From the IMG/VR virus record IMGVR_UViG_3300025652_000506, positions 1 through 24,919 of that record: 24,919 nt of DNA; one strand, 5' to 3'. Under the pieces are notes generated by a model that did not search any database, was not told where the DNA came from, and saw nothing but the letters and a program-made list of their open reading frames with translations. Position numbers and translations under genes: made by a program. This DNA is from a virus. Below are positions 1-17,083 of this stretch, piece by piece; position 1 is the first letter of the stretch, and every line of letters starts with the position of its first letter.

Positions 1-1891
1 CGATGGTAATAATGTAGCTATAGGTTCAAACGCATCTTTTCATCTTGATTCTGGACAATATAATACAATGGTGGGTACAAGTGCTGGTGAATCTTCTGCT
101 GGAACAATTACTTATCAGATGAATGTAGGAGTAGGATATAAAGCCTTGTTTGATTTAACGACCGGAGATGGTAATGTTGCAATAGGTTCAGAGTCTGCCT
201 CTAATCTTACTATTGGTAATTATAATATATCGATAGGTAAAAATACTTTGATTACAGAAGGTGTAGGAAATGGAACAACAGCAGTAGGAAATGGTGCTGG
301 TGGTTATCAAAATTCAGATAGTAATAATGAAGCAACTGGTAATTCTCTTTTTGGCTATGTAGCTGGAGAATTTAATGTAACTGGTACAAATAACACTTAT
401 ATTGGCTATGAATCTGGTAAAGGAGCGTTGAATCAAAGTAATTCAGCAAACACAGGGTTAGGCTATGGCTCATTAAAAAGTATAACAACTGGAAATAGCA
501 ATACAGCAATAGGTGCTTACGCCATGCAAATTGCGACTACTGCAACTGTTAATACAGCAATTGGTGGCGAGGCTATGTCTGGAATAACAACTGGTGCTGT
601 TCAAGATGCCGTAGCAGTTGGATATGGAGCATTTAAAGGTCACACCTCAACAAGTACAGGAACAAATGGTACAGTTGCTATTGGAAGAGCTACGTTGTTT
701 AGCCTTACAACTGGAGATAAAAATACAGCTATTGGATATAAGGCTATGACTAGTCAAACTACTGGAGCTAGAAATACAGTTATTGGCTACGAAGCTATGT
801 TTACAGCAGATGGAGGAGAAGATTACAACACTATAATTGGAAGTCAAGCTGGTTATTACATAAATAATGATGCTTCTCACGATAATGTTATTATTGGTAA
901 AAATGCACTACAAGGTGGAACTGGCACAATTCTTGGTAATGTAGCTATTGGCTCTGGTGCTATGGATGCTGTTAGTAATAACAACCAAACTGGAGTAGTT
1001 GCTATTGGAAATGATGCTTTAGGAGCATTGACATCTGGAGCTAGTAATACAGCTATCGGTTATCAATCTGGATTGTATCTTACAACTGGTGGAAGTAATA
1101 CTTATGTGGGTTATGAGGCTGGAAAAGGCGTAGATGGAACACCCCAGACTGGTGGTAATAATGTTGCTATTGGACAAGGTTCTGGAGTTCTTTTACAAGG
1201 TTCTGCCACATCAAACACTTTTGTGGGTACTGCCGCTGGAGATGTAGTTACAACTGGTACTAACAATGTCATTATTGGAACATTAGCAGACCCCAATACT
1301 GCGACTGGAACAAATCAAACTGTTATAGGATATAATGCAGTTGGACAAGGAGACAATGTAGTAGTATTAGGAGATGCTAATGTAACTCATGTTTGTTTAG
1401 GTCACGAAGGTGCAACTGCTGTTGCTAAAGCCGCTGGGTTTGCATTTCCAGCAACTCAAGTAGCTAGTGCAGATGCTAACACCTTAGATGATTATGAAGA
1501 AGGTACTTGGACACCAACCTTTAGAGCTGCTGGTGGTAGTGCTGGTAGTGTTGATGCAACTGGTTCTGGAGGTAGTTATACTAAAATAGGCAGACAAGTT
1601 CATATACGAGGTAGAGTTGATGTAACTAATGTCGGTAGTTACTCTGGTAATATTCAAATGGGTGGAATACCATTTACTGCTGGGGGTTCTGCATCTGATT
1701 TTCATGGCGTTGGAAGGTTAGCTTTTGTCACATTAGCTGGGCATACAATAATAGCAAGATTGCCTAGTGGTGGAAATACAATAGATTTTGCAGAAATGAA
1801 TTCTGGAGGAGGAATTACCTTTCCACAAGTAAGTGAAGCACAAGCTGGAGGAAATACTAGCTTAATAATTGAAATAACATACTATATTTAA
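1..1891 (+). CDS. Tail fibre / adhesin with YadA-head-like repeats (5' partial)
   Basis: The reading frame is open to the left edge: codons from position 2 read DGNNVAIGSNAS, already a repeat unit, so the ATG at 68 is internal and the true start lies outside the window. About two dozen short repeats of the type TTGxxNTAIGYxA follow each other (NTAIGY, NVAIGS, NTVIGY, NTYIGY, NVIIGK). This is the pattern of left-handed parallel beta-roll heads of trimeric autotransporter adhesins, and related repeats are common in marine phage fibres. The repeats end near base 1400. A linker, NTLDDYEEGTWTPTF, at about 1480-1525 then leads into a glycine-rich C-terminal domain of about 125 residues; that linker is common before the C-terminal domain of phage tail fibres. 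The inferred role is a trimeric receptor-binding fibre. The fold is inferred from the repeats; the fibre role also rests on its place beside tail and lysis genes. Confidence 0.85.
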   Translation, partial: DGNNVAIGSNASFHLDSGQYNTMVGTSAGESSAGTITYQMNVGVGYKALFDLTTGDGNVAIGSESASNLTIGNYNISIGKNTLITEGVGNGTTAVGNGAGGYQNSDSNNEATGNSLFGYVAGEFNVTGTNNTYIGYESGKGALNQSNSANTGLGYGSLKSITTGNSNTAIGAYAMQIATTATVNTAIGGEAMSGITTGAVQDAVAVGYGAFKGHTSTSTGTNGTVAIGRATLFSLTTGDKNTAIGYKAMTSQTTGARNTVIGYEAMFTADGGEDYNTIIGSQAGYYINNDASHDNVIIGKNALQGGTGTILGNVAIGSGAMDAVSNNNQTGVVAIGNDALGALTSGASNTAIGYQSGLYLTTGGSNTYVGYEAGKGVDGTPQTGGNNVAIGQGSGVLLQGSATSNTFVGTAAGDVVTTGTNNVIIGTLADPNTATGTNQTVIGYNAVGQGDNVVVLGDANVTHVCLGHEGATAVAKAAGFAFPATQVASADANTLDDYEEGTWTPTFRAAGGSAGSVDATGSGGSYTKIGRQVHIRGRVDVTNVGSYSGNIQMGGIPFTAGGSASDFHGVGRLAFVTLAGHTIIARLPSGGNTIDFAEMNSGGGITFPQVSEAQAGGNTSLIIEITYYI

Positions 1892-2775: not shown

Positions 2776-3013
2776 TCAATCAACAAGTTATAACATCCCC
2801 ATAAAGTTTGTCTTTGTGGGGGTGATAGCAAGTTTTTTAATAAGCTGTAGTGGTTGGTCTATTATGGGACATGCATTAGATGAAGAATATCCTAGTGTAT
2901 TAAGTACAATTATAGATAAAGACTCTGTTGAACATTTCTATAATGGCTCTATACATAGTGGCGATAATTGGTGCTATAATCATAATCAGTATGAAAAAGT
3001 GGAGATTAAGTGA
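2753..3013 (+). CDS. Small lipoprotein, candidate outer-membrane spanin subunit
   Basis: An 86-residue ORF with a GTG start at 2753, overlapping the preceding gene by 23 nt and with an AAGGAAG site just upstream; no ATG exists before codon 38. The N-terminus is a lipoprotein signal: lysines at residues 2-6, a hydrophobic stretch at about 16-30, and a lipobox LISC with the modifiable cysteine at residue 32. The remaining 54 residues are polar. A small lipoprotein next to TM/coiled-coil proteins and upstream of an endolysin fits an o-spanin (Rz1-like) that helps disrupt the outer membrane at lysis, although it is not proline-rich as Rz1 usually is. It could be another phage lipoprotein, such as one for superinfection exclusion. 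The hairpin at 2794-2824 lies inside its coding sequence. Confidence 0.55.
   Translation: MKKKKKSNQSTSYNIPIKFVFVGVIASFLISCSGWSIMGHALDEEYPSVLSTIIDKDSVEHFYNGSIHSGDNWCYNHNQYEKVEIK
2794..2824 (+). promoter_or_regulatory. Strong 13-bp RNA hairpin after the 2533-2775 gene
   Basis: Bases 2794-2806 (CATCCCCATAAAG) pair with 2812-2824 (CTTTGTGGGGGTG) across a 5-nt loop, TTTGT, giving 13 consecutive pairs of which two are G-U. It begins 19 nt after the stop at 2775. A run of six T occurs at 2833-2838, 8 nt beyond the stem, which is too far for a canonical intrinsic terminator. It may act as an inefficient terminator, an mRNA processing site or a stability element. It also lies within the signal-peptide codons of the lipoprotein ORF. 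Confidence 0.55.
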
Positions 3014-3333
3014 ATGAACAACCACAAACTGCTAGGAGTTATAGGACTAGCGTTCTTGACGACAACGCTATTATTTCTATTAACCTCAAATGGATGGCTC
3101 AGATTCTCGTATTGTGTGCTGGTCTTGTTTACGGTTACTATAGGATTGAGACTAGAATTGCAACACTTGAAGATGGGATGCTATCTGCAAACACAGAAAT
3201 TAGGAACTTACTTACTAAACATGAGTTGGAGGAAACTCAATCCAGAGAAAAATTGGAAGAGAAGATATCCTTCTACGAAAAAGAGTTCAATATAAACCCA
3301 TTAAGTTGGGGTAAAAAAAGGAAAAAGAGATAA
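3010..3333 (+). CDS. Single-pass membrane protein with coiled coil (i-spanin- or holin-like)
   Basis: A 107-residue protein with a GTG start at 3010 that forms a 4-nt GTGA overlap with the upstream stop; GGAG at 3001-3004 is spaced 5 nt from it. Residues 1-25 are polar. A membrane segment covers about 28-44 (WMAQILVLCAGLVYGYY). A coiled coil covers about 47-92, and the protein ends in NPLSWGKKRKKR, a strongly basic tail. Its stop overlaps the next ATG (TAATG). A TM anchor plus long helix beside a lipoprotein gene is the layout of an inner-membrane spanin, but the cytoplasmic N-terminus is longer than in Rz and the basic end is unusual. A different frame (3014-3295) also starts here; this frame is preferred because it keeps both junction overlaps and gives a sensible protein throughout. 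Confidence 0.75.
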   Translation: MNEQPQTARSYRTSVLDDNAIISINLKWMAQILVLCAGLVYGYYRIETRIATLEDGMLSANTEIRNLLTKHELEETQSREKLEEKISFYEKEFNINPLSWGKKRKKR

Positions 3334-3653
3334 TGGATTTCATGGCAGTTTACGGAGAAGCTGGAATGATAGGAATAGTAGGTATAATGTTTGTATACCT
3401 AGTTGTTTCTTTATCTAAAAAGTCTGAGGCACAACAAGAATCTCTTAAGAACTTAGAGGTAGAAAACAAAGGGCAGTCTGAAACAATAGCTAATATGGAA
3501 GGTATGATTATAAAACTTATTGCAAGATGGAATGAATCTGATTCTGTTAGGGATAGAAGATATGAGCAAACTATGGAAGCTATGTCAGACTTAGAAAAAC
3601 AATTATCAAGGATGGATGGCATTATGAGTAGAATGAATGGGCATAGTAAATAA
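3333..3653 (+). CDS. Holin-like membrane protein (TM plus coiled coil)
   Basis: A 106-residue protein. Residues 1-9 are short and polar, 10-27 form one membrane segment (AGMIGIVGIMFVYLVVSL), and the rest is a long amphipathic helix rich in Glu, Lys, Arg and Met that ends in MSRMNGHSK. This layout resembles BhlA/UviB-type holin-like proteins (N-terminal TM, then a charged helix), although those are usually shorter. It overlaps its neighbours by TAATG at both ends, so it is translated as part of a tightly coupled lysis cassette. Holin is the best guess from topology and context; a virion or membrane-scaffold role cannot be excluded. Confidence 0.7.
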   Translation: MDFMAVYGEAGMIGIVGIMFVYLVVSLSKKSEAQQESLKNLEVENKGQSETIANMEGMIIKLIARWNESDSVRDRRYEQTMEAMSDLEKQLSRMDGIMSRMNGHSK

Positions 3654-3799
3654 TGGACAGTTTAAAAGTATCTGGAGCTAGTTTTGCAAGTCAAGTCATA
3701 GTCTTTATGGATATGTTACCATACTTTTTAGGTATTGCAATAGCTGTAATGAACATAGTGTATTTATATTATAAAATAAGAAATGAAAAGGAGTCGTAG
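3653..3799 (+). CDS. Tiny membrane protein (48 aa)
   Basis: This short ORF begins with an ATG overlapping the previous stop (TAATG at 3651-3655) and ends with TAG at 3797-3799, immediately followed by the next ATG. It encodes 48 residues: a polar N-terminus (MDSLKVSGASFASQ), a hydrophobic stretch at about 15-40 (VIVFMDMLPYFLGIAIAVMNIVYLYY), and a charged tail KIRNEKES. It has one long or two short membrane passes, with the positive tail probably cytoplasmic. The exact junctions on both sides argue that it is a real gene. It may be a holin, an antiholin or a small membrane regulator of lysis. Confidence 0.65.
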   Translation: MDSLKVSGASFASQVIVFMDMLPYFLGIAIAVMNIVYLYYKIRNEKES

Positions 3800-3976
3800 A
3801 TGTTAGGAAAAGTAGTAGCTCAGTATTTATTAGACGATGAAGTTAAAGCTGATTTAATTGCATCTGTTAATAAATCTATTAATGTACCAATGATAAACGA
3901 AAAGACAGAAGCTAAAATATTAGAAGCTATCTGGGAATTATTTGAAATGGCAATTAAAAAAAAGTTGGGAGTATAA
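3800..3976 (+). CDS. Small conserved phage protein (58 aa), unknown
   Basis: The ATG at 3800 follows directly on the preceding TAG, and the TAA at 3974-3976 is followed at once by the next ATG. The 58-residue product (starting MLGKVVAQYLLDDEVK) continues with LIASVNKSINVPMINEKTEAKI and an amphipathic C-terminal helix. It has no TM segment. The pattern of a short helix, then xVNkxInVPxisekxE, then a helix resembles small proteins beside phage lysis genes, but I know no function. Its gapless junctions and small-gene context support a real gene. Confidence 0.6.
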   Translation: MLGKVVAQYLLDDEVKADLIASVNKSINVPMINEKTEAKILEAIWELFEMAIKKKLGV

Positions 3977-4171
3977 ATGACACATTCGATAGTAACATTA
4001 ATCATAGCGTCTTCTTTGCATGGACAACCGCTAGAAGAAAATAAATATCAAGAACAGTATGCTATGATGGAAGATGTAAAGAAGAAAAAAAAGAAAGGTA
4101 AGAAGATTGGTGGGAGTAAAGGTAAGAAGTCTAAGAAAGGTTTCTTCTCTAAAATCTTTGGTTCTAAGTAA
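3977..4171 (+). CDS. Lysine-rich small protein with signal-like N-terminus
   Basis: A 64-residue protein. The first 16 residues are hydrophobic (MTHSIVTLIIASSLHG) and could be a weak signal or anchor. A short acidic middle (ENKYQEQYAMMEDV) follows, and the C-terminal half is almost all Lys and Gly (KKKKKKGKKIGG, then KGKKSKKGFFSKIFGSK). It starts right after the preceding stop and its own TAA overlaps the next ATG. It is the first of four basic proteins in a row. The role is unknown; nucleic-acid or membrane-surface binding would fit the charge. Confidence 0.65.
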   Translation: MTHSIVTLIIASSLHGQPLEENKYQEQYAMMEDVKKKKKKGKKIGGSKGKKSKKGFFSKIFGSK

Positions 4172-4476
4172 TGGCTAAGACTCCAGCTTGGCAACGCAAA
4201 GCAGGCAAGAATCCTAAGGGAGGCTTAAACGCTAAAGGAAGAAAGAGCTACAAGGGTGGTACTTTAAAAGCTCCAGTTAAGTCTGGAGATAACCCAAGAA
4301 GAGCTAGTTTCCTTGCAAGAATGGGTGGTATGCCCGGGCCAGAAAAGAAAAATGGTAAGCCTACTAGGTTGCTACTTTCTTTAAGAGCTTGGGGTGCTAG
4401 TTCTAAAGCAGATGCCAAGAAGAAAGCTGCCGGCATTAGCAAAAGAAACAAAGCTAAGAAAGGAAAGAAGAAATGA
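4171..4476 (+). CDS. Basic phage protein resembling the DUF6321 type
   Basis: A 101-residue, strongly basic protein beginning MAKTPAWQRKAGKNPKGGLN. In order it carries AWQRKxGKNPxGGLNxKGR, LKAPVKSG, RRASFLARMGGMPGP and a C-terminal ALSLRAWG-like element (here LLLSLRAWGASS), then a Lys-rich tail. I recognise this motif order from a small protein of many marine and T7-like phages, often labelled DUF6321; the label is from memory. The conserved Arg, Gly and Trp residues suggest a compact nucleic-acid-associated or virion protein, but no function is established to my knowledge. It overlaps both neighbours (TAATG and ATGA). Confidence 0.75.
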   Translation: MAKTPAWQRKAGKNPKGGLNAKGRKSYKGGTLKAPVKSGDNPRRASFLARMGGMPGPEKKNGKPTRLLLSLRAWGASSKADAKKKAAGISKRNKAKKGKKK

Positions 4477-4643
4477 ATAAGAAGGTTAAAGCTCCTGCTG
4501 GTTATCATTGGATGAAATCTGGTAGTAGTTATAAGTTAATGAAGCATAGTGGTAAGTTTAAAGCTCACAAAGGTGCAAGCGTAATGGCTGATTTTAAAGT
4601 TCAGATGAAACATGCATCTCCTAAAAAAAAGAGAGGTAAGTAA
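4473..4643 (+). CDS. Small basic conserved protein (56 aa)
   Basis: The ATG at 4473 overlaps the previous TGA (ATGA), and the TAA at 4641-4643 overlaps the next ATG (TAATG). The 56-residue product reads KVKAPAGYHWMKSGSSYKLM, then HSGKFKAHKGASVMADFKVQMKH, and ends in PKKKRGK. Short proteins with APKGYHWMKxGxxYKLM and HKGAS elements recur beside the neighbouring basic proteins in marine phages, as far as I recall. Aromatic and basic residues dominate; there is no TM segment. Function is unknown. Confidence 0.7.
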   Translation: MNKKVKAPAGYHWMKSGSSYKLMKHSGKFKAHKGASVMADFKVQMKHASPKKKRGK

Positions 4644-4807
4644 TGCCAAAGAAAAAGAAAGGCTTATACGCCAACATACACGCTAAGAAAAAAAGAATTA
4701 AGGCTGGTAGTGGCGAAAAGATGAGAAAGAAAGGAGCTAAAGGAGCACCAACAGCTAAGAACTTTAAACAAGCAGCTAAGACCGCTAAGAAAAGAAAGAA
4801 GAAATAA
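4643..4807 (+). CDS. Small very basic conserved protein (54 aa)
   Basis: A 54-residue product with 20 lysines and 3 arginines, starting at an ATG that overlaps the previous stop and ending at a TAA that overlaps the endolysin ATG. It contains GLYANIHAKKKRIKAGSGEK followed by MRKKGAKGAPTAKNFKQAAKTA. That GLYANIHAKxxRIxxGSGEKMRKxGxxGAPTxxNF pattern is one I recognise from many phage genomes, without an assigned function. The composition is close to that of DNA- or RNA-coating peptides. Its tight linkage to the other three basic genes suggests a shared role. Confidence 0.75.
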   Translation: MPKKKKGLYANIHAKKKRIKAGSGEKMRKKGAKGAPTAKNFKQAAKTAKKRKKK

Positions 4808-5187
4808 TGCCTAGATTCGGTAAGACAAGCAAAGCAAGACTTAAGGGTGTAGACTCTAGGTTAGTCAATGTTCTTAATGAGCTTATTAAGATAATGGATG
4901 TTACCATTATTGAAGGATTGCGTAGTGAAGAACGACAGAAAGAGCTGTTGGCTAAGGGAGCTACTAAGGTTAAATACTCAAAGCATATGGAAGGTAAAGC
5001 TGTGGATTTAGCTCCCTACCCAATAGATTGGAAAAACAGAGATGGGTTTCATTATATGGGTGGCATGATTAGAGGTATTGCAAAACAACTAGGTCTTAAA
5101 GTAAGATGGGGAGGAGATTGGGATTCTGATGGAGATGTTAAAGACAATGGCTTTGACGATTTAGTTCACATAGAGATAAGAGACTAA
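4807..5187 (+). CDS. Endolysin, M15-type zinc peptidase (L-Ala-D-Glu / D-Ala-D-Ala class)
   Basis: A 126-residue single-domain protein that by family knowledge cleaves the peptide part of peptidoglycan. The zinc-site signature of M15 peptidases is complete: SKHMEGKAVDL gives His60 and Asp67, and VHIEI gives His121 with the following Glu123. The upstream segment VTIIEGLRSEERQKELLAKG (residues 32-51) is the conserved Arg-containing strand/helix before the site. The length matches small phage endolysins such as that of T5 (about 137 residues). There is no signal peptide or TM segment, so export would need the holin-like proteins encoded just upstream. It overlaps both neighbours by TAATG. Confidence 0.88.
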   Translation: MPRFGKTSKARLKGVDSRLVNVLNELIKIMDVTIIEGLRSEERQKELLAKGATKVKYSKHMEGKAVDLAPYPIDWKNRDGFHYMGGMIRGIAKQLGLKVRWGGDWDSDGDVKDNGFDDLVHIEIRD

Positions 5188-8100
5188 TGCCTAAAAAATT
5201 CTTAAATATTGATGACTTTAGTAAAGGAATTAATAATGTCAAAAACAGAAGAGACTTAAGAGTTGGAGAGGCTTCTGCATTAACTAATTTTGATATTGGC
5301 AATAGGGGAGAGTTAAAACCATTAGGTTACTTTCATGAAGCAACTAATGCATCTGCAGTAGCTGTTGGTGGAACTAATGTAGATGTTGTTACAGCCTCAG
5401 TTAATCCCGGATATGGATTGCATTATTTTGAATATGATACAGAAACTGGTACTGCTGGTTTTTCTATAGCCGGAACAGATGTTAGCGGTGACATTACAAT
5501 AGGAGCTGGGGGTGTTAGCTTAGGAGCTTCTGATGGTACTGACAGTAATTACCTCATAGGTTTTATATCTTCTGAATTTACACAGACTGTTAATATCACT
5601 AGTGGAGATGCCACAGTTACTCATACAGCAAATTCTAGAATTGTAAGAGGGTTGCCAGTATCGGGTACTGGTATACCAAGTGGTGCAACTATAGCCAGCG
5701 TTACCAATACAACTACATTTGAATTAAGTGCAAATGCAACTGCTAGCTCTAGCCCTATTTGCACATTTACAGATACGCAACCAGTAACTCAATTAAACGT
5801 AGAAAATTCAAATTGGATTGCTATAAGTGCAGCTACTGATTTTTTAACAAATTCCTCAAATAGTTTTTTAAAAAGTATTACCAATTCTGATTTTCCTGTA
5901 AAGGTTGTAATAACAGGAACTGCTCTTAACAATGGAACTTATAATATAATTTCAGTTCATGGCGGTGGTTATTCGGGAAGTGGAGTTGCTGATTTTATTG
6001 GAAATTATGGGGCTAATCATTCAATTAAAGCCAAATCTACTCTTTCATCTTTTCCTTTAGTAATGCAAATTTCAGAAGAATTAACTCACGAAACTATATC
6101 TGCTGGAACTACAGTTAACTTTAAAAGGTCTGGTGGCTATACTCCAGATGTTGCATTGTTATTAGGTAATACAGATGATAGTAAAGTTGATGTTTTTCAC
6201 GCAACAACCGATACTTGGGCTACTGATGTAATTGATTTAGAATCTATAGTAAATTCTGGTTCTTATCCAGAGTGGGTATTCTATTCTGCTAACTCAGCCG
6301 TTAGAATTGCAGACGCGAACAAACTTAATATATCTATTCCTAAATGGTATGGATATATAAAAAGAGACCAATTTACTGCAAAAATATCAAACAAATCATC
6401 TGGAACAGTATACGCATTTGTATCTAGGTCTATTCCCTCTGGTTTATACGTTGAAACTAATAATTTAGAAGCTCCATCTTCTGGAGATTTTATAGCTGCT
6501 GGTTCTGTAAACGGAACAAATGAATATAATATGACCGCTGGAAAGGGCTGGTCTGTATCTGTTACTGAATCTACCGATGAGGGAACTTGGGAAGCTTTAA
6601 CTTATGAGTTTGCAACTACTTTTATATATGATGGAAACCAAGAATCGTTAATAAATGAGTTGTCTACTACGTTTACAGCAACAGGATTAAAAAAGTTTCT
6701 TATTAATGTGTACGCTTATTACGATAAAGACACAGAAGCTTTTTATGCCAATAGAATTTCTGGGGGTAGGGTTTATATTAGGGAAAGTGGAACAAGCGAT
6801 GATTGGACTTTGTTAGCAGACATTGATATTAGAAGAGGGGTAAGAACTTCTTTGCTTGGAGCACATGATAGATGGGTATTAGATGGAGCTACTGGAGCTA
6901 AAAATCTTTCGGCTCAAAAATTTAGAGTAACTATTCCTACGAATACTACTACTGGAAACAGAGCTTCTCAATACTGGATGCTTTCAAAAACAGAACCTAG
7001 TTTAGAAACGTATACAGCATTAAACGGATTTGACCAGTCTGCTACACAACTTTCATTTGGAATAGAGGGTTCTAGCTACTCAACCGCAATTGTTGCAAAC
7101 AGAAGAGCATTTGTAGCTAATGTTAAATATAATTCTGGGGATACTGGAGGGTTTGCTCCTTCTGGGCCGGGTGCAGATGCAGGATACGGAAGATTTGCTT
7201 CTGAGTTTGTTAATTATGGCGATAGGATTATGTTTAGTGAAATAGGAAGGTATGATACTTTTCCTAATTTTAATTATATTGAAGCGTCAAAAGGAGATTC
7301 TGAAAGCTATATAAGATTAGAAAGTTTTGCAGATAGGTTATTAGCATTTAAACAAAGGACAATGCAAGTTATTAATATATCATCATCGTCTCCAAACAAT
7401 TGGTTTGTTGAAGATACTGTATACTCAGCAGGAGTTTTATACCCTTATTCAGTTGCAAAAGGAACAAGAGGAATAATCTGGGCAAATACTAATGGTGTTT
7501 ATATTTATAATGGAAATTCAGTTGCTATGGTTAGTGAAGGAAAAATAAGTGACTCTGATTGGCTTACTTTTTCAAATGGAAAGCAATTGTCTGTTGGTTA
7601 TATAGGGAGTTCAGACCAAGCGTTAATTATACAAGATGTAGACAGTACGCAAGAAGCTTATTTGTATGATATAAGAGCAAATGCTTTTACTTTTGCAGAC
7701 AACATAGACCCAAATTCAGCCACATTAACAGAGCCTCCGTTTACTAATTTTGTAAATGATAGTTCTGGAAATCTTATTATGGGGTATGATGTTGAAGGCA
7801 CTTCACTAGGTTCTACAGGAGCTAACGATGTTCATTTTACTAGGTGGGTTAATGATGTAGGAACACATAAAGTATATTTATTAGAAACTCCAGATTTTGA
7901 TTTAGGTAGTCCAGCATTGATAAAAAAGTTTTATAAAATATATATTACCTATCAACATACAGATTCTAATGCAATACCAGCTACGAGAGTATTTTATCAA
8001 ATTAATCAAAATGGAAACTGGTTGGCTATGGATGTGTCTAATTCAACAACAAATGGATTTCCGCAAAAAAATGGAGTGTACGGATTAAGTGTTTTTGCTC

Positions 8101-8225
8101 CTTCAAGTATAGTGTCATTTCAAAGTATAGCTTTTAAATTAGACTTTAGTTTAAGTAATGCAACTAAATTTTATGTTAACGATATTCAAATTGAATACAG
8201 AGTAATAAATAAAAGAGGCGGTTGA
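5187..8225 (+). CDS. Tail nozzle / hub-like structural protein
   Basis: A 1012-residue virion protein. The N-terminus FSKGINNVKNRRDLRVGEAS, then LTNFDIGNRGELKPLGYF, is the typical opening of podovirus nozzle or DNA-stabilisation proteins (T7 gp12 and P22 gp10 types, beta-propeller folds). The second signature block, about residues 676-777, has NYGDRIMFSEIG, FADRLLAFKQRTMQVI and GIIWANTNGVYIYNG, the blade repeats usual in this group. Between them, residues of about 55-330 form an insertion with beta-rich modules, including VSGTGIPSGATIASV (about 158-172), a module seen in many phage tail proteins. By homology type it would sit at the distal end of a short tail and gate DNA. Assignment is by motif only; a fibre-attachment role is the main alternative. 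Confidence 0.72.
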   Translation: MPKKFLNIDDFSKGINNVKNRRDLRVGEASALTNFDIGNRGELKPLGYFHEATNASAVAVGGTNVDVVTASVNPGYGLHYFEYDTETGTAGFSIAGTDVSGDITIGAGGVSLGASDGTDSNYLIGFISSEFTQTVNITSGDATVTHTANSRIVRGLPVSGTGIPSGATIASVTNTTTFELSANATASSSPICTFTDTQPVTQLNVENSNWIAISAATDFLTNSSNSFLKSITNSDFPVKVVITGTALNNGTYNIISVHGGGYSGSGVADFIGNYGANHSIKAKSTLSSFPLVMQISEELTHETISAGTTVNFKRSGGYTPDVALLLGNTDDSKVDVFHATTDTWATDVIDLESIVNSGSYPEWVFYSANSAVRIADANKLNISIPKWYGYIKRDQFTAKISNKSSGTVYAFVSRSIPSGLYVETNNLEAPSSGDFIAAGSVNGTNEYNMTAGKGWSVSVTESTDEGTWEALTYEFATTFIYDGNQESLINELSTTFTATGLKKFLINVYAYYDKDTEAFYANRISGGRVYIRESGTSDDWTLLADIDIRRGVRTSLLGAHDRWVLDGATGAKNLSAQKFRVTIPTNTTTGNRASQYWMLSKTEPSLETYTALNGFDQSATQLSFGIEGSSYSTAIVANRRAFVANVKYNSGDTGGFAPSGPGADAGYGRFASEFVNYGDRIMFSEIGRYDTFPNFNYIEASKGDSESYIRLESFADRLLAFKQRTMQVINISSSSPNNWFVEDTVYSAGVLYPYSVAKGTRGIIWANTNGVYIYNGNSVAMVSEGKISDSDWLTFSNGKQLSVGYIGSSDQALIIQDVDSTQEAYLYDIRANAFTFADNIDPNSATLTEPPFTNFVNDSSGNLIMGYDVEGTSLGSTGANDVHFTRWVNDVGTHKVYLLETPDFDLGSPALIKKFYKIYITYQHTDSNAIPATRVFYQINQNGNWLAMDVSNSTTNGFPQKNGVYGLSVFAPSSIVSFQSIAFKLDFSLSNATKFYVNDIQIEYRVINKRGG

Positions 8226-8776
8226 TGAGTAGAGAGATAAGAAATTTAGTCAACTCATCTAACCAAGAAGCAAGTCTTGAAGTTGGAGTAGGGCGTGTTT
8301 TACCAGAAGGCGGTAGTTCAGTTAATTTAGAAGAAGGAAGGCTTGTAGTTAAAAGAAAATATAACAACCTTATATACAAATCTTTTATGTCTCGTGATGG
8401 CAATGAAATTGTTGATAAAAACCTTGACGTTGGTGGAAGGGTAAAGTCAAAAATAACAGCAGAAGATTTAATATTTAAACAAGGCCCTAATTTAGAAATA
8501 TCTAGTGGAGCTATTACTGTAACTCATTCTTTACATGAAGTAGATGTTCAAGGAGCTAGTGGAAATGACGACCTAGATACTATTAATGGTGGAGTTTCTG
8601 GTCAAATTTTAATATTAAGAGCTGTTAATGGAGCTAGAACAGTAACTATTAAGGACAATGAAGATAATATATTTTTGCCCGGTGGTAGTGACTTTGCTTT
8701 AGATACGGCTACAGATGTGGCTGTGCTATTAAAAAATGGTTCAGATTGGTATGTTATTGTTACAGCGAGTATATAA
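8225..8776 (+). CDS. Fibre-like virion protein
   Basis: A 183-residue protein. The ATG at 8225 overlaps the preceding TGA (TGATG) and is preferred to the TTG one codon earlier. The N-terminal 40 residues are polar. The middle (SKITAEDLIFKQGPNLEISSG) leads to a beta-rich C-terminal domain with ITVTHSLHEVDVQGASGND, LRAVNGARTVTIKDNEDNI and VAVLLKNGSDWYVI. This last block (AITVTxSxHxVDtxgg..dDLdTInGG..GqiLiLraxxxxRtVTvkDxxgNI) is a common module at the ends of phage tail fibres and decoration proteins. It is likely a short tail fibre or tail appendage, following the nozzle gene directly. Confidence 0.72.
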   Translation: MSREIRNLVNSSNQEASLEVGVGRVLPEGGSSVNLEEGRLVVKRKYNNLIYKSFMSRDGNEIVDKNLDVGGRVKSKITAEDLIFKQGPNLEISSGAITVTHSLHEVDVQGASGNDDLDTINGGVSGQILILRAVNGARTVTIKDNEDNIFLPGGSDFALDTATDVAVLLKNGSDWYVIVTASI

Positions 8777-8793
8777 ATTTAAAGGATATAATT

Positions 8794-10008
8794 ATGTCGT
8801 ACGATAAAGGTAAAACAATAAAAGAATATATGCAAGGTGGCTATGCCCAACCTATGGAGTATCAAACTGGTGGTTATATCCCCGGAGTATCTAGTGCTTT
8901 ATATAGAACTGGTCTTGATAGAAGAACAGCGATAGCACAAGATGAACAAAGAGAACAGGCTAAGGCCTTAGAAAAACAAGGTAAAAGAAGAGGTTTGTTT
9001 ACTTCATTAGGAAAGCTAGGTGGCACAATTGCAGGTGGTGCTCTTGCAACTGCTCTTGCACCAGTTACTGGAGGTGCATCACTATTAGCTGGAGCTGCAT
9101 TAGCTAAAGGGCTAGGTTCTGCTGGTGGTTCTTTTTTAGGAGAGAAATTAGCAGGAGTAACAGCAAGTGATGATTTTAGAAGAGTGGGTCAAGAATCTTC
9201 TACTGGTTTATTAGATACTGGATTTGAAGAGCTAGGAGATATAAGAAAAGAATATGGAGAAGGAGCTTTGGGCCGGTCTTTAGCAACGGGTTTAAGAACT
9301 GGATTAAGTGCTGGTGGAGCAGATTATTTAATGAATTTAGGTAAGGGTAAAGATGTTTTAGAAGCTGCTGAGGGAGTAGGTGGACAGTCTCTTGGTCAAA
9401 CGCAAGGATTAGGGTTAAATGTTGAAGCGCCTTCAATGACTAATTTTGACTTAGGTCGTTTTTATGGCAATGTACCATCTCCTGTGTCTGAGGCATTAAG
9501 TTCTGGTAGTAACACAAGTAGTGGGTTAATAAACCAAGGAACTAATTTAGCTAGTTCAATAGGCGATATGGACTTTAATGTTGACCAGTTATTTCAAGAA
9601 GCTTATGGAACGCCTACTTTTGGCATGAACCAAGGTGGCAAAGTCTACGGATATGAAGATGGTGGAGTTATAGAAATGCTACAAGGTATAGCCAATAAAG
9701 CTAGCTTTGGTAGGCGAAATCAAGTAGAAGATATAGAACAAAGTAACGCTCCAATGATTGATATGGAAGCTGTTTTAGCTAAAAAAGAAATGCAAGACAA
9801 TGCTGGATTTAGTATTGTTCCTACTGTTGGGGAATTTATGGGAGAAAAAATTTACCAAGGAACACCAGAAATGAGCAAATATTTAGAAAGCGATGATTAC
9901 AGAAATTATTTAAAAACCAAAATTAGTGAATTTGATTCACCAAAAATGCAAGGATACGCAGGCGGTGGCTTAATAAACATGCTACCATTTAATAGGAGAA
10001 TTATGTAA
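8794..10008 (+). CDS. Virion protein with glycine-zipper region and repeated GG motifs
   Basis: A 404-residue protein. The start is the ATG at 8794, with AAAGGA 7 nt upstream; an earlier in-frame ATG at 8746 would overlap the previous gene and lacks a site. Residues 1-30 hold two short motifs, YMQGGYAQPM and QTGGYIPG. Residues of about 70-135 are a Gly/Ala/Leu-rich stretch (GGTIAGGALATALAPVTGG, then LLAGAALAKGLGSAGGSF) like the membrane-active glycine zippers of phage ejection proteins. Further GG motifs occur at NQGGKVYGYEDGGVIEM and at the end, YAGGGLINMLPF. It lies between tail genes and large ejection-protein candidates, so it is probably an internal virion protein. The stop overlaps the next ATG (TAATG). 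Confidence 0.7.
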   Translation: MSYDKGKTIKEYMQGGYAQPMEYQTGGYIPGVSSALYRTGLDRRTAIAQDEQREQAKALEKQGKRRGLFTSLGKLGGTIAGGALATALAPVTGGASLLAGAALAKGLGSAGGSFLGEKLAGVTASDDFRRVGQESSTGLLDTGFEELGDIRKEYGEGALGRSLATGLRTGLSAGGADYLMNLGKGKDVLEAAEGVGGQSLGQTQGLGLNVEAPSMTNFDLGRFYGNVPSPVSEALSSGSNTSSGLINQGTNLASSIGDMDFNVDQLFQEAYGTPTFGMNQGGKVYGYEDGGVIEMLQGIANKASFGRRNQVEDIEQSNAPMIDMEAVLAKKEMQDNAGFSIVPTVGEFMGEKIYQGTPEMSKYLESDDYRNYLKTKISEFDSPKMQGYAGGGLINMLPFNRRIM

Positions 10009-11213
10009 TGGCAGATACAGTACCAGCTATGCTAGAACCCGGTGAGTATGTTATACGCAAAGATGCCGCTGAGGAAATAGGAATAGACAATTTAAATATG
10101 ATGAACAATATAGATAGGTCTAGCCAGATGTATATGAATCATGGTGGCTTAGTTCCTCAATTACAACATGGTCACTCAGCTATAGATGAGTTACTAGCTA
10201 TGAATACATTAAGCAATCAAGCTAATGTAGACATGACTAGGCAAAGCTCTATGATGAACCAAGGTGGTAAACTAAAACCAGTTCCAGAGGGTAACAAAGG
10301 TCTAGGTAAACTACCAGACACAGTTCGTAATCGTATGGGATATATGCAAGAAGGTGGTGAAGTACCACAAGACCCAGACCCTTTGCAAATAGAAGCAAGG
10401 ATGCGTGGAGACTTTAAAAATATGGGCACTATAGGTGCTGTAGATTCTAATAATTATTATAGTAACTTGCTTAACGAGGCTATGAAAGATAGAGAGATGC
10501 TTGAAAAAGGTTCTTTTCTAGAAGGGTTTGCTCCATCAAAAGATAGAATTGAAGAAGATATATTTAAAGCTCTTAAGTATTATTCAAGAAATCATAACAC
10601 ATCTCCAAAAGTACAAGGCTATAATAATGGTGGTCAAGTATATTCTTACGGTTCTCAAACTACTGAAATACCCACTCTTGAAGAGGCACAGAGATTAACT
10701 GGGCAAAGAATAGATGACCCAGAAGGAGCAGGACTTCAAGAATATGATTTTTCAAGAGAAGAAGGTATTACTAGTAATATTAATAGACAAATAGCTAGTA
10801 TGCAAAATCAATTAAGAAGTGCACAAGGAGTAGGTGGGGCAAGAATTGGTCAAGCAATTACACAAGCAGATACTATGGGTAGAGGATTTGAAGGTTTTGG
10901 TGGAAGGCAATCTGCGATAGATACAGCAACAACTCAAGCACAAAGGGGCTATGAATCTGGAATAGAAAGATTTCAGTCTGGTTTAGACCAAGCTAAACAA
11001 GATGAGTTTGAAAGTATAAGAAGTATGCGTGAGGGATACTTAACAGACCAAATAGGGAACATAGGACTAGAGGCATCACAAGAAGGTACTTCTGATTACA
11101 ACATAGAAGATGACCCAAATTGGAACGCTCCAGAGAATCCAATTGAAAATCAACAATATGTTTTTAATAACCAAACGTATAGATATACAAATGGCAGTTG
11201 GAAAAAATATTAA
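10008..11213 (+). CDS. Virion protein with tape-measure-like DTVPAMLEPGE motif
   Basis: A 401-residue protein that opens with MADTVPAMLEPGEYVIRKDA. The element DTVPAMLxPGEyVi is best known from C-terminal parts of tape-measure and related large tail proteins. GG motifs recur: MNHGGLVPQLQHG, MNQGGKLKPVPEG, MQEGGEVPQD and NNGGQVYSYG. The C-terminal half (about residues 255-360) is an alpha-helical region rich in Gln, Arg and Glu (RQIASMQNQLRSAQGVGG, then ERFQSGLDQAKQDEFESI), likely coiled coil, followed by an Asn-rich end. It starts on the stop of the preceding gene, in another frame. It is likely an internal or tail-core protein working with its neighbours; no enzymatic motif is seen. Confidence 0.68.
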   Translation: MADTVPAMLEPGEYVIRKDAAEEIGIDNLNMMNNIDRSSQMYMNHGGLVPQLQHGHSAIDELLAMNTLSNQANVDMTRQSSMMNQGGKLKPVPEGNKGLGKLPDTVRNRMGYMQEGGEVPQDPDPLQIEARMRGDFKNMGTIGAVDSNNYYSNLLNEAMKDREMLEKGSFLEGFAPSKDRIEEDIFKALKYYSRNHNTSPKVQGYNNGGQVYSYGSQTTEIPTLEEAQRLTGQRIDDPEGAGLQEYDFSREEGITSNINRQIASMQNQLRSAQGVGGARIGQAITQADTMGRGFEGFGGRQSAIDTATTQAQRGYESGIERFQSGLDQAKQDEFESIRSMREGYLTDQIGNIGLEASQEGTSDYNIEDDPNWNAPENPIENQQYVFNNQTYRYTNGSWKKY

Positions 11214-15400: not shown

Positions 15401-16073
15401 TGGAAACTTTATGCCTATTATTAGGTTAGGAATTGCTGGTGTAGCTGGTGGACTTATAGCGAATCAAGCTAAAGACTTTATGAGAAGAGTCTTATCTGGT
15501 GAGGAACAATTTAACCCACAAGAAGGTATGCCAAATGACTTACAAGAAATAGCAGAGGGCGTTATGTCTGTTGGTGCTTTTGGTTTTATGGGAGAGTTAA
15601 TGTCTGCAGGGTTAGATGAAGGTAAGAGTGTTTCTAGTTCTTTAAAGTTCTTAGCATATCCACCATTACTATCAGATGTAGACAACTTCTTTACTAAATT
15701 TGTACCAGCTATGGAGTCTGATTTTAAAGAGCTAAGAGCAGATGCATTGAAAAGAAGCCCAGCTAGGTTAATGAAACTAACAGGTAGTTCTGTGTTTAGA
15801 GAACTGTCCAAGAGAGCAGAAACCGAAGGTATGAGCTTTAATAGAATCAAAGCATCTAAAGGTTTTAGAGTTAAAAAGATAATGAATATGCTAGAGAAAG
15901 CACAAACTGATGAAGACTTTAATAAAGCATACGCAGAGGTACAGGCTTGGAATAAACTTAATAATGAGTTTCCTATAACTATGAGTGATATTAGCTTTCA
16001 AAAATTAATGCAAAGAAAGATGAGACGCTACGAGAAACTAGCTCTAAATGAATTTAAAGGGTTTGAGTTATAA
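12417..16073 (+). CDS. Large ejection (internal core) protein candidate
   Basis: A 1218-residue protein, the largest complete gene here. Residues 1-45 form a small motif, LLTKYRNTYPNLKNINDDKL, then ALVKKFPEYK, recurrent at the start of phage internal proteins. Residues of about 90-215 are Gly/Ala-rich and hydrophobic (DIGAGLASFLAPTDLAITAL, GGGIGGAAAKN, GAVLGGTTSGFGTFLTARGA), plausibly membrane-inserting after ejection. The middle 650 residues are helical and basic. The C-terminal third contains APLMNVSQATISTALEAG, FTQFKRFGYRQYNYMMDLA and another hydrophobic segment, IIRLGIAGVAGGLIANQAK, resembling ends of large polyvalent/ejection proteins in podoviruses. No lytic transglycosylase or protease motif is visible, unlike T7 gp16. 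The inferred role is channel formation for DNA entry. It overlaps both neighbours. Confidence 0.7.
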   Translation: MNKSQLLTKYRNTYPNLKNINDDKLFNALVKKFPEYKTEITDYSTKTSENIFDSLPSFIKLGYNRSIQGMAQEMSTGKKRFDLSGYEPGVVADIGAGLASFLAPTDLAITALGGGIGGAAAKNVATKYVFKNLVRNGVKGTVAKDVAKRASVNIGKQTGALALYEGFGGALQQKKDTGEIKLGGVVKDTISGAVLGGTTSGFGTFLTARGASTLRKIAGETAALGTVSPLIEGELPTPQDYLTAGGMLLGLKGVSKAMGSKTELEKFIERGRRPLNKKEVVENKLAESYGSQVDTIDLARRQTEVWIDRAGKKWNLISTKSNKYTLMGATTSDVRRVDKSRFNTSYRLSTENQKIGLEDIIKDRQSNLRKMESNLKVDDATKQLLRNSALSKKNQLTLARPEVQKVVGDKIKLDFFTPLELDKYRNVLAKKDLANKNIDLLKTEGWITQEAKMSLNKENFFPKPIQGMLNSLVRPKYRGSQKQAVRKFYNSVADYTADKDVLTGEYLGNLLSNQRINPSNKTINRFRKKGMSKAQAEEAYYRNLTKLKEDGKETDLDAITDLISRRFVSEGGQLPGYIKNYVPQMIKRDVADAVFDDMLSVIGKKSEIAKVLRNDFAYMEGDAVFGGMVNPDNFIKKNLKVAEYLNKLIERSSTRLNKDTRKLILSNIEDGTNLQYFRAYSKVANGLSEELFNTFGNLEKTRRFNIPDELLERNFKTLITRYATKAANRTAFIKNFGAKGEKFKSLLEASEIEDKGVMRELFHHVKGDIEYHSAYNYKPETKNAWRKYMEWNTGLKIGLGYAPLMNVSQATISTALEAGYIPFFKGLFSLTSKKRRELIEKSGVTNYSMFNEMIGISNESKVSNKIVDGLSKFSGFNGINKINQITAAATARVLVDDMFKAVKGKGLLGKSKLRRDWAASKLNQLGIDPKTSKITDDDYVRAMSKFARKSQLQKDILEDPLIFNNPKTKVFTQFKRFGYRQYNYMMDLAQHDIAYGNFMPIIRLGIAGVAGGLIANQAKDFMRRVLSGEEQFNPQEGMPNDLQEIAEGVMSVGAFGFMGELMSAGLDEGKSVSSSLKFLAYPPLLSDVDNFFTKFVPAMESDFKELRADALKRSPARLMKLTGSSVFRELSKRAETEGMSFNRIKASKGFRVKKIMNMLEKAQTDEDFNKAYAEVQAWNKLNNEFPITMSDISFQKLMQRKMRRYEKLALNEFKGFEL

Positions 16074-17083
16074 TGCCTAAACAATCTATCTCAGATTTTC
16101 TTAAGCCACAAACTACTACTCCTGTATCTACTAATGTTCATAGCAATATAGATAACTTAATAGTACAATCTAAACTAGATGAGTTTGATAGATATGGCTC
16201 TATGCGTACAACCCCCCTAGAGTATAAGGGTGGAATGGGAGATGTAGTAGCTAATGTAGCTATGAATCCAATGATGACTTTAAAAAGTTTAGGAAGTGTA
16301 GGTAGGAAAATACTACAAAAAACTGGTTTAAGAAACCCATTATATCACTTTACTGATAGTAAAAGCGCCTCTAATATATTAAAAGAAGGTACTATAAGAG
16401 GTACGGATGAAGCTTTTCCCGGGAAAGGGTTTAAAGGAGACAGAAAGGATTATTGGAGAAAAGAGAGGGGTTTTGAGTCTCCAGCAGTTTCAGTAACAAG
16501 AGACCCAAAATGGGCTTCTAGAGGGCATGGACAGATATCTTCTGATGTAAGATTTATTATAGATAAAGATAAATTAGCAAAAAAAGGTATAAAAATGCAA
16601 CCGTATTCTGACCCCGGATATGAAAAAACATTAGACTGGTATAAACACCCAAATCAATCTTTTAAAGAAGCGTTAAACTGGAAAATAAAAAGCGATTATT
16701 ACAAACCATCAACTGGTAGAAAAATGCCTCAGCAGATGAATCCTACATTTGAATTTGAAGAAAGAGTAAGAGGTAATATACCTTCTGAAAATATAAAAAT
16801 GATAGACTTAATAAGGTTTTCTCCAAATAAATTTCTTACAGACATAAACAATCAAGATTTAATTAAAGCATTAGTAAAGTCTGACATTCCAAAAATAAAA
16901 AGTCAAACAGCCTACAATCAACTCCTAGATTTAAACAAAAGATTAACAAGTAAAAATTGGGAAGACAAAGTTAGTAAGCAAGGAGGTGTTCTAAATATTG
17001 CAGACACTAGGGGAAATTTATTAAAGTATATAGATGAATTATTAAATACTCCTACTTATAAATTTGACCCATTTAAACGCTAA
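16073..17083 (+). CDS. Putative ADP-ribosyltransferase-like protein, probably virion-associated
   Basis: A 336-residue protein. The N-terminal 85 residues (MPKQSISDFLKPQTTTPVST, then GDVVANVAMNPMMTLKSLGS) look like a virion-targeting or linker region. From residue 90 a compact domain shows the order expected of ADP-ribosyltransferase-type folds: LYHFTD (His92), then SASNILKEGTIRG, then SPAVSVTRDPKWASRG (SVTR at 140-143), a strand VRFIIDKDKLAKKGIK, and FEFEERV (Glu227, Glu229, Glu230) followed by IPSENIKMIDLI. His/Arg near the start and a late Glu on a strand match the H/R..S..E arrangement of these enzymes, and similar domains occur in phage polyvalent proteins. Targets are unknown. It overlaps the ejection-protein gene (TAATG) and is the last gene of the late operon. 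The fold call is inference from motifs. Confidence 0.55.
   Translation: MPKQSISDFLKPQTTTPVSTNVHSNIDNLIVQSKLDEFDRYGSMRTTPLEYKGGMGDVVANVAMNPMMTLKSLGSVGRKILQKTGLRNPLYHFTDSKSASNILKEGTIRGTDEAFPGKGFKGDRKDYWRKERGFESPAVSVTRDPKWASRGHGQISSDVRFIIDKDKLAKKGIKMQPYSDPGYEKTLDWYKHPNQSFKEALNWKIKSDYYKPSTGRKMPQQMNPTFEFEERVRGNIPSENIKMIDLIRFSPNKFLTDINNQDLIKALVKSDIPKIKSQTAYNQLLDLNKRLTSKNWEDKVSKQGGVLNIADTRGNLLKYIDELLNTPTYKFDPFKR

Follow-up and report, generated by a model that had tools for sequence, protein, structure and literature searches.

What a run of four consecutive genes for small, strongly basic proteins contributes to a phage is the question raised by one locus of IMG/VR virus record IMGVR_UViG_3300025652_000506. 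In the window (the whole stretch of 24,919 nucleotides that was analysed), these genes stand between a group of lysis-like genes and an M15-type endolysin gene (Table 1). The initial annotation, made from the letters alone, described four overlapping basic ORFs leading into an endolysin, with holin-like genes upstream, and suggested that they may encode packaged, DNA-condensing peptides.

The window locus

The coordinates, junctions and charges of the four ORFs agree with that description, as does its count of 20 lysines among the 54 residues of the last protein. The ORFs are joined in order by TAATG, ATGA and TAATG, and a further TAATG leads into the endolysin gene at 4807. The proteins of 64, 101, 56 and 54 aa carry net charges of +11, +28, +15 and +22, with pI values of 10.1 to 11.9. 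Among 39 window genes picked by hand from the ORF list, they rank 5, 2, 3 and 1 in charge per residue, and an equally basic run of four appeared in 24 of 20,000 gene-order shuffles, in a test devised after the run had been seen. Median dN/dS, from pairs with a median dS of 1.0 to 2.0 and thus near saturation, is 0.10 for the 64-aa gene (30 pairs), 0.08 for the 101-aa gene (26), 0.12 for the 56-aa gene (60) and 0.10 for the 54-aa gene (20), compared with 0.06 for the endolysin gene (24 pairs). Because each median is about 0.1, the four ORFs look like genes under constraint.

Table 1. Coordinates of the features discussed.
Feature	DNA	Position	Strand	Evidence and remarks
Tail-spike or structural protein, 607 aa	Window	68-1891		Many AIG/TTG-like repeats (by eye); phrog_4636 and phrog_6002 matches
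Upstream flank: 107-, 106- and 48-aa genes with hydrophobic or coiled stretches, plus a 58-aa gene	Window	3010-3976	+	Lysis-like; recurs across lineage loci
106-aa gene of the upstream flank	Window	3333-3653	+	Weak spanin match, phrog_739, E 1.6e-4
64-aa protein	Window	3977-4171	+	N-terminus with a hydrophobic stretch, middle rich in Lys, C-terminus that looks amphipathic (read from sequence)
101-aa DUF6321 protein	Window	4171-4476	+	PF19846, E 3.2e-20; phrog_4689, E 6e-28
56-aa basic module, AGYHWMK...KLMK...HKGAS type	Window	4473-4643	+	Relatives in phage records and IMG/VR
54-aa basic module, GLYANIHAK... type	Window	4643-4807	+	phrog_16028, E 4.6e-26; two predicted helices
M15-type endolysin, downstream flank of the slot	Window	4807-5187	+	phrog_465, E 8.3e-39; PF13539
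1012-aa late protein by the slot	Window	5187-8225	+	No PHROG or Pfam match
Two adjacent proteins	Window	8746-11213		Repeated Gly-Gly/Tyr-rich motifs (by eye); PHROG none for the first, weak for the second; Pfam none for either
336-aa protein, last gene of the plus-strand run	Window	16073-17083	+	No Pfam or PHROG match at E 0.1
258-aa phage protein	L330 (IMG/VR)	4503-5279	+	CTS-like start, S-AdoMet lyase (PF23780), DUF6321
gp137	S-CREM2	108049-109521		DUF6321 at 109291-109512

Both PHROG and Pfam uphold the endolysin. The "holin-like" label holds in that the upstream neighbours are small genes with a hydrophobic stretch, as read from the sequence; the named match among them is the weak one to a spanin. 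Relatives of the 1012-aa protein beyond the endolysin were present in all nine lineage contigs tried; the phage collection gave none at E 1e-3. Searches of the window identified no head gene. The 336-aa protein had appeared ADP-ribosyltransferase-like by eye; this assignment was rejected.

Family assignment, distribution and predicted structure

The 101-aa protein is a member of DUF6321, scoring 73 bits against a Pfam curated cut-off of 28.5 with residues 12-74 placed on profile positions 1-72 of 72, and the 54-aa protein covers positions 2-49 of the 50 in the phrog_16028 profile. Of 50,697 phage records, 490 have a match to DUF6321 and 84 a match to the 54-aa module, in both cases mostly in Synechococcus, Prochlorococcus and Pelagibacter phages; the statement in the initial annotation that two of the proteins are widespread in marine phages, with function unknown, fits these counts. 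Domain searches found DUF6321 in 12 of 16 named phage records (absent from Syn5, HTVC106P, CRP-901 and CRP-810) and phrog_16028 in 9 of 20. The 56-aa protein matched 4 phage records and at least 595 related stretches in IMG/VR, and the 64-aa protein was found at 36 loci in IMG/VR, with nothing matched in Pfam (at E 1) or NCBIfam (at E 0.1) and a best PHROG match at E 0.16. None of the four window proteins was matched in the NCBIfam search.

DUF6321 and phrog_16028 are already known families, unexplained. A literature search, with most subscription journals and all bioRxiv preprints outside its scope, returned no mention of DUF6321 or DUF6496; within the same scope, "capsid targeting sequence" and "cyanophage" occurred together in a T4 review alone. 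What is new here is a swappable slot in which charge is kept, a split-or-fused relation between modules, and a link to a T4-type targeting-like start.

AlphaFold gave a confident, small and mainly helical model for DUF6321 (pLDDT 87.8, pTM 0.72) and a model of two helices for the 54-aa protein (mean pLDDT 78, pTM 0.52). A sequence search for solved relatives of either protein returned none at E 1. Against the PDB, the best Foldseek match of the DUF6321 model had an E of 9.2, with Z of at most 2.5 in a second structural comparison, and Foldseek found no match for the 54-aa model; with matches this weak or absent, neither a new fold nor its absence is shown for the two models. In BFVD, matches of the DUF6321 model to three prohead proteases (E 1.9, 5.0 and 8.1) were weak and form no part of the argument. 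The same model matched part of A0A6J5N5R9, a 679-aa phage protein labelled "Ferritin/DPS domain protein", at E 1e-5. Dps proteins condense DNA.

A swappable slot between constant flanks

A check suggested in the initial annotation was whether the four genes always travel together. They do not: of 55 distinct lineage loci in which the flanks are kept, 4 have the complete set, and a fixed four-gene system was rejected. Elsewhere among these loci the 56-aa gene is the single representative of the four in 23 and the 64-aa gene in 14, other pairs or triples are present in 10, and none in 4. The 48 distinct complete slots have constant flanks around 20 different combinations of basic genes, in which other clusters of basic proteins (F3, F4, F6, F7, F9, F10 and F13) replace the genes seen in the window. 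Summed slot charge reaches at least +60 in 38 of the 48 and is +20 or less in 8. As seven slots hold the 64-aa gene only and one is empty, the gene set is dispensable. Randomly varying neighbours had been named as an observation that would speak against a packaged role; the neighbours do vary, and the variation is mostly an exchange with other basic modules.

Outside the window lineage, the DUF6321 and 54-aa modules often adjoin in either order. Across 153 distinct loci, 80 of the 144 small genes next to either module were basic (net charge per residue above 0.1), compared with 136 of the 885 control small genes at least four places away in the same loci (Mann-Whitney p 5e-16), a comparison built on crude gene calls and a background that spans both strands. 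With profiles built from IMG/VR clusters, a second module family was found within 3 kb of DUF6321 in 29 of 43 GTDB loci, which are separate from the loci used for profile building; most of these 43 come from metagenome bins, so phage contigs within the bins are likely. Counts for one cluster (F1) cover both the 54-aa module and a KQAVAIA-type module, which were merged through one fusion protein that joins them. The 18 cluster profiles had no match in 115 kb of T4, Syn5 and S-CREM2 DNA, of which the S-CREM2 part excludes its DUF6321 gene.

Fused modules in large phages

The modules that are separate genes in the window are parts of longer proteins elsewhere. The 54-aa module and DUF6321 are joined in nine proteins. 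In three long cyanophage proteins, syn9 gp114, S-SCSM1 gp029 and S-H35 gp192, DUF6321 is C-terminal and a further module (F11) is internal; S-CREM2 gp137 has DUF6321 without F11, so that the two coincide in 3 of 4 such proteins. F11 was also present in 40 of 72 and 13 of 62 DUF6321 ORFs in two sets of IMG/VR contigs, gathered with S-CAM1_209 (set A) and S-SZBM1_192 (set B) as queries. Immediately before the DUF6321 module, E-[AGS] occurs in 76 of 99 fused ORFs compared with 302 of 2792 control alanines, a junction that would be compatible with protease cleavage and is confounded by common descent.

Pfam domains were counted, at E values up to 0.01, in 73 fused DUF6321 proteins with a length of 180 aa or more: DUF192 (15), DUF5872 (8), DUF5661 (6), DUF3008 (4), S-AdoMet lyase (1) and HNH_3 (1). 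An S-AdoMet lyase domain also belongs to the 258-aa protein of contig L330 (Table 1), a possible injected anti-restriction protein. The DUF192 and HNH_3 partners, together with the positive charge, would also suit late cytoplasmic proteins that bind nucleic acids or ribosomes, act on the host or on phage replication and have no place in the virion. Such a role is improbable, and the least probable of those weighed here, given the late, structural-gene context of the modules in named phages and the targeting-like starts seen among relatives.

Targeting-like starts and the prohead protease

In T4, the first ten residues of a protein target it into the head, positions 4 and 7 mattering most, and the prohead protease cleaves after L/I-X-E, according to the sections available of a T4 review (PMC9026906). 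In the T4 record, ipII and ipIII begin MKTYQEFIAEA. The clearest DUF6321 protein with such a T4-type targeting-like (CTS-like) start is S-SZBM1_192 (165 aa), which begins MKTFKQYITEA; S-CAM1_209 begins MKSFKELRSDIREA.

Sets A and B were scanned with a loose pattern that accepts any methionine near the start. At lengths of 80-200 aa, set A has a CTS-like start on 16 of its 22 distinct DUF6321 ORFs and on 10 of its 197 remaining ORFs (Fisher 4e-13); in set B the figures are 5 of 39 and 12 of 331 (p 0.024). Both sets are biased to similar starts by their ranking on whole-query match, with the scan pattern beginning at query residue 13 in set A and the patterns of set B including the start itself. 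The Fisher tests overstate independence, because the 16 ORFs of set A are related and represent perhaps six architectures by eye. At all sizes, the counts are 16 of 72 DUF6321 ORFs against 14 of 546 others in set A, and 6 of 62 against 13 of 759 in set B. Seven of the nine proteins that join the 54-aa module to DUF6321 fit the start pattern, one (L397) nearly fits and one (L382) does not.

The value of this start as a predictor of packaging was calibrated on published virion lists. In S-CREM2, 5 of 6 CDS with the strict pattern at the annotated start are in the virion list, compared with 42 of 197 without it (Fisher 0.003); the calibration covered 203 CDS of 219 ORFs and 47 of the 52 listed virion proteins. 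The five are the SAM hydrolase gp6, gp13, the kinase gp14, gp136 and the cytidylyltransferase gp154. In S-SZBM1, the second phage used, 2 of 85 CDS examined have the strict start and neither of the two was detected, in a virion list of 30 proteins; its cytidylyltransferase, which was detected in the virion, starts in much the same way but one residue out of register, and falls outside the pattern. Support for the predictor is thus real in S-CREM2 and absent in S-SZBM1. The S-CREM2 SAM hydrolase combines its CTS-like start with the same S-AdoMet lyase domain (PF23780) as the L330 protein.

As a separate observation on S-CREM2 (OR473000, 3.8-13.3 kb; L499 and L501), several non-structural members of its virion list, namely the SAM hydrolase, an APH-like kinase, the cytidylyltransferase and the small gp13, have CTS-like starts; in the Cas9-like gp12, a comparable stretch occurs farther into the protein. 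The S-CREM2 paper, in its accessible part, leaves open whether those non-structural proteins are truly packaged (PMC10665884).

Read by eye, all four window proteins lack a CTS-like start. A T4-type protease gene (PF03420) is present in T4 and in 3 of 3 T4-like cyanophages; in nine contigs of the window lineage, whose completeness is not stated, neither Peptidase_S78 (0/9) nor the T4-type S77 protease (PF03420; 0/9) was matched. As neither type of prohead protease was matched in the nine, T4-type targeting and processing probably does not apply in this lineage. The PF12236 profile matched nowhere and was left out of the argument.

Evidence from virions

The product of S-CREM2 gp137 was detected in the virion with 4 unique peptides and 4.1% coverage (PMC10665884, Table 3). 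This protein is acidic overall (net charge -20), its N-terminal body is long and its start does not fit the CTS-like pattern, and the detected peptides may lie outside DUF6321. S-SCSM1 gp029, a second DUF6321 protein, bears the record label "virion protein"; 45 proteins of this phage were reported from mass spectrometry (PMC9602691), and we infer that the label reflects such a detection. S-SZBM1_192 is missing from the 30 proteins that the available text of its virion study reports as detected (PMC9146016). For other module-bearing phages, the P-SCSP1u cryo-EM paper makes no mention of mass spectrometry, the P-SSP7 paper yielded nothing of use, and the text consulted of Sullivan 2010 has no gene-by-gene virion list against which syn9 gp114 could be compared. 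Trypsin digestion in silico, with no missed cleavage, gives one peptide of 7-30 aa for the 54-aa protein and two for each of the other window proteins. With so few tryptic peptides from lysine-rich proteins, ordinary proteomics would tend to miss them, and non-detection is weak evidence.

The suggestion of packaged peptides therefore draws indirect support from other phages, in the form of CTS-like starts, one DUF6321 protein in a virion list and another so labelled, and head-gene neighbours in five T7-like phages; that the four genes do not travel together speaks against it.

Gene neighbourhood and competing explanations

The modules are found between the scaffold and capsid genes or right after the capsid gene in the five T7-like phages, and between the terminase and portal genes in DSL-LC05. 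In five T4-like records the DUF6321 gene comes after the small terminase gene, either adjoining it or with one to three genes in between, and in S-SCSM1 it lies between the tail-fibre and large-terminase genes. Such positions could be explained by late proteins that aid the scaffold, terminase or portal in head assembly or DNA packaging and are lost from the mature virion, an explanation with which the non-detection of S-SZBM1_192 agrees. We consider it unlikely: the CTS-like starts and the one detected DUF6321 protein point to retention in the head, and non-detection carries little weight because lysine-rich proteins give few tryptic peptides.

The window itself suggests a different role. Disruptins are cationic peptides that work on the envelope alongside the holin and the endolysin, and the basic genes of the window, placed as they are among lysis-like genes, could encode lysis accessories of this kind or bind the cell wall. 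An M15 peptidase or lysozyme gene is likewise near the modules in HTVC106P, CRP-810 and HTVC204P, and the upstream lysis-like genes of the lineage accompany the 64-aa gene, whose product has a hydrophobic start, in 31 of 35 tabulated loci. For the set as a whole this role is nevertheless quite unlikely. Head-gene neighbours were found in 6 of 12 annotated records outside the T4-like phages (hand tally, with a 13th record, CRP-901, left out), four T4-like records have no annotated lysis gene within 4 kb of DUF6321, and DUF6321 is predicted to be folded, unlike a simple amphipathic peptide. Neighbourhood alone can also mislead, because in T4 the internal-protein gene ipIII lies beside the lysozyme gene e, with ipII next to ipIII. 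The 64-aa protein may do something else: in IMG/VR it was found in the window lineage alone and has that hydrophobic start, and for it a lysis-accessory role is about as likely as a place inside the head.

A proposed role inside the phage head

The explanation we tentatively prefer, at slightly less than an even chance, is that at least DUF6321 and the 54-aa module, and probably the 56-aa module, are head-internal, DNA-associated and interchangeable, comparable in role to the T4 internal proteins. The swapping within a slot, its charge, the fused modules, the CTS-like starts and the DUF6321 protein of one published virion list were observed; packaging in the window phage, DNA binding and injection we infer. 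The late-expressed basic modules would attach to the genome or the prohead core and remain in the head, where their charge would hold them to the DNA, and with it they would probably pass into the host. In small phages such as the one studied here, each module is encoded as a peptide of its own in a swappable late-gene slot. T4-like cyanophages have fused modules, some of which follow a T4-type targeting-like start and one of which is joined to a SAM-lyase domain; in these phages import into the head would depend on the targeting start, and the modules may be released from one another at protease sites. Because the window peptides have no CTS-like start and no prohead protease was matched in nine contigs of their lineage, they would need affinity for DNA or scaffold to enter the head, which is the weakest link of the proposal.

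A wider version, which we hold to be doubtful, is that about a dozen tiny basic modules form a mix-and-match kit common to marine tailed phages and would coat or accompany the packaged genome, as peptides in small phages and as polyproteins behind a targeting, perhaps protease-cleaved, start in T4-like phages, some of them with anti-restriction enzymes. Such a phage counterpart of protamines plus injected effectors would have been missed because it yields few tryptic peptides. Should the modules prove to be head-internal, numerous small genes of ocean phages that are still unexplained could be placed in the phage life cycle, and injected cyanophage proteins may become easier to predict from the targeting-like start. 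The head-internal role is open to direct test with isolates already in culture.

Comparison with known systems

The T4 internal proteins IPI, IPII and IPIII are likewise small and basic, and the proximity of ipII and ipIII to a lysozyme gene resembles the position of the window genes. Their CTS-type start is common to some DUF6321 proteins of T4-like cyanophages, whereas the window copies are without it. Net charge is lower in the T4 precursors (+2 to +9) than in the window proteins (+11 to +28), no T4 internal-protein family is among the Pfam and PHROG matches of the window proteins, and neither prohead protease profile was matched in the nine contigs of the window lineage.

T7 gp6.7 and gp7.3 are small virion proteins of a short-tailed phage, and the N-terminus of gp7.3 is mostly positive and placed around the DNA end, as described in the available portion of PMC11784390. 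They are likened to the window proteins by description, and differ in their low copy numbers (12 and 6) and fixed positions in the core and tail (PMC11784390). A likeness by description also extends to the cationic DNA-condensing proteins of eukaryotic viruses: ascovirus P64 is cationic, as the modules are, and condenses viral DNA for encapsidation, as stated in the available part of PMC6163548, but the viruses are unrelated. The closest counterparts are the DUF6321 and phrog_16028 proteins of cyanophages and pelagiphages, which are direct homologues of the 101-aa and 54-aa proteins and occur elsewhere fused, alone or in reversed order.
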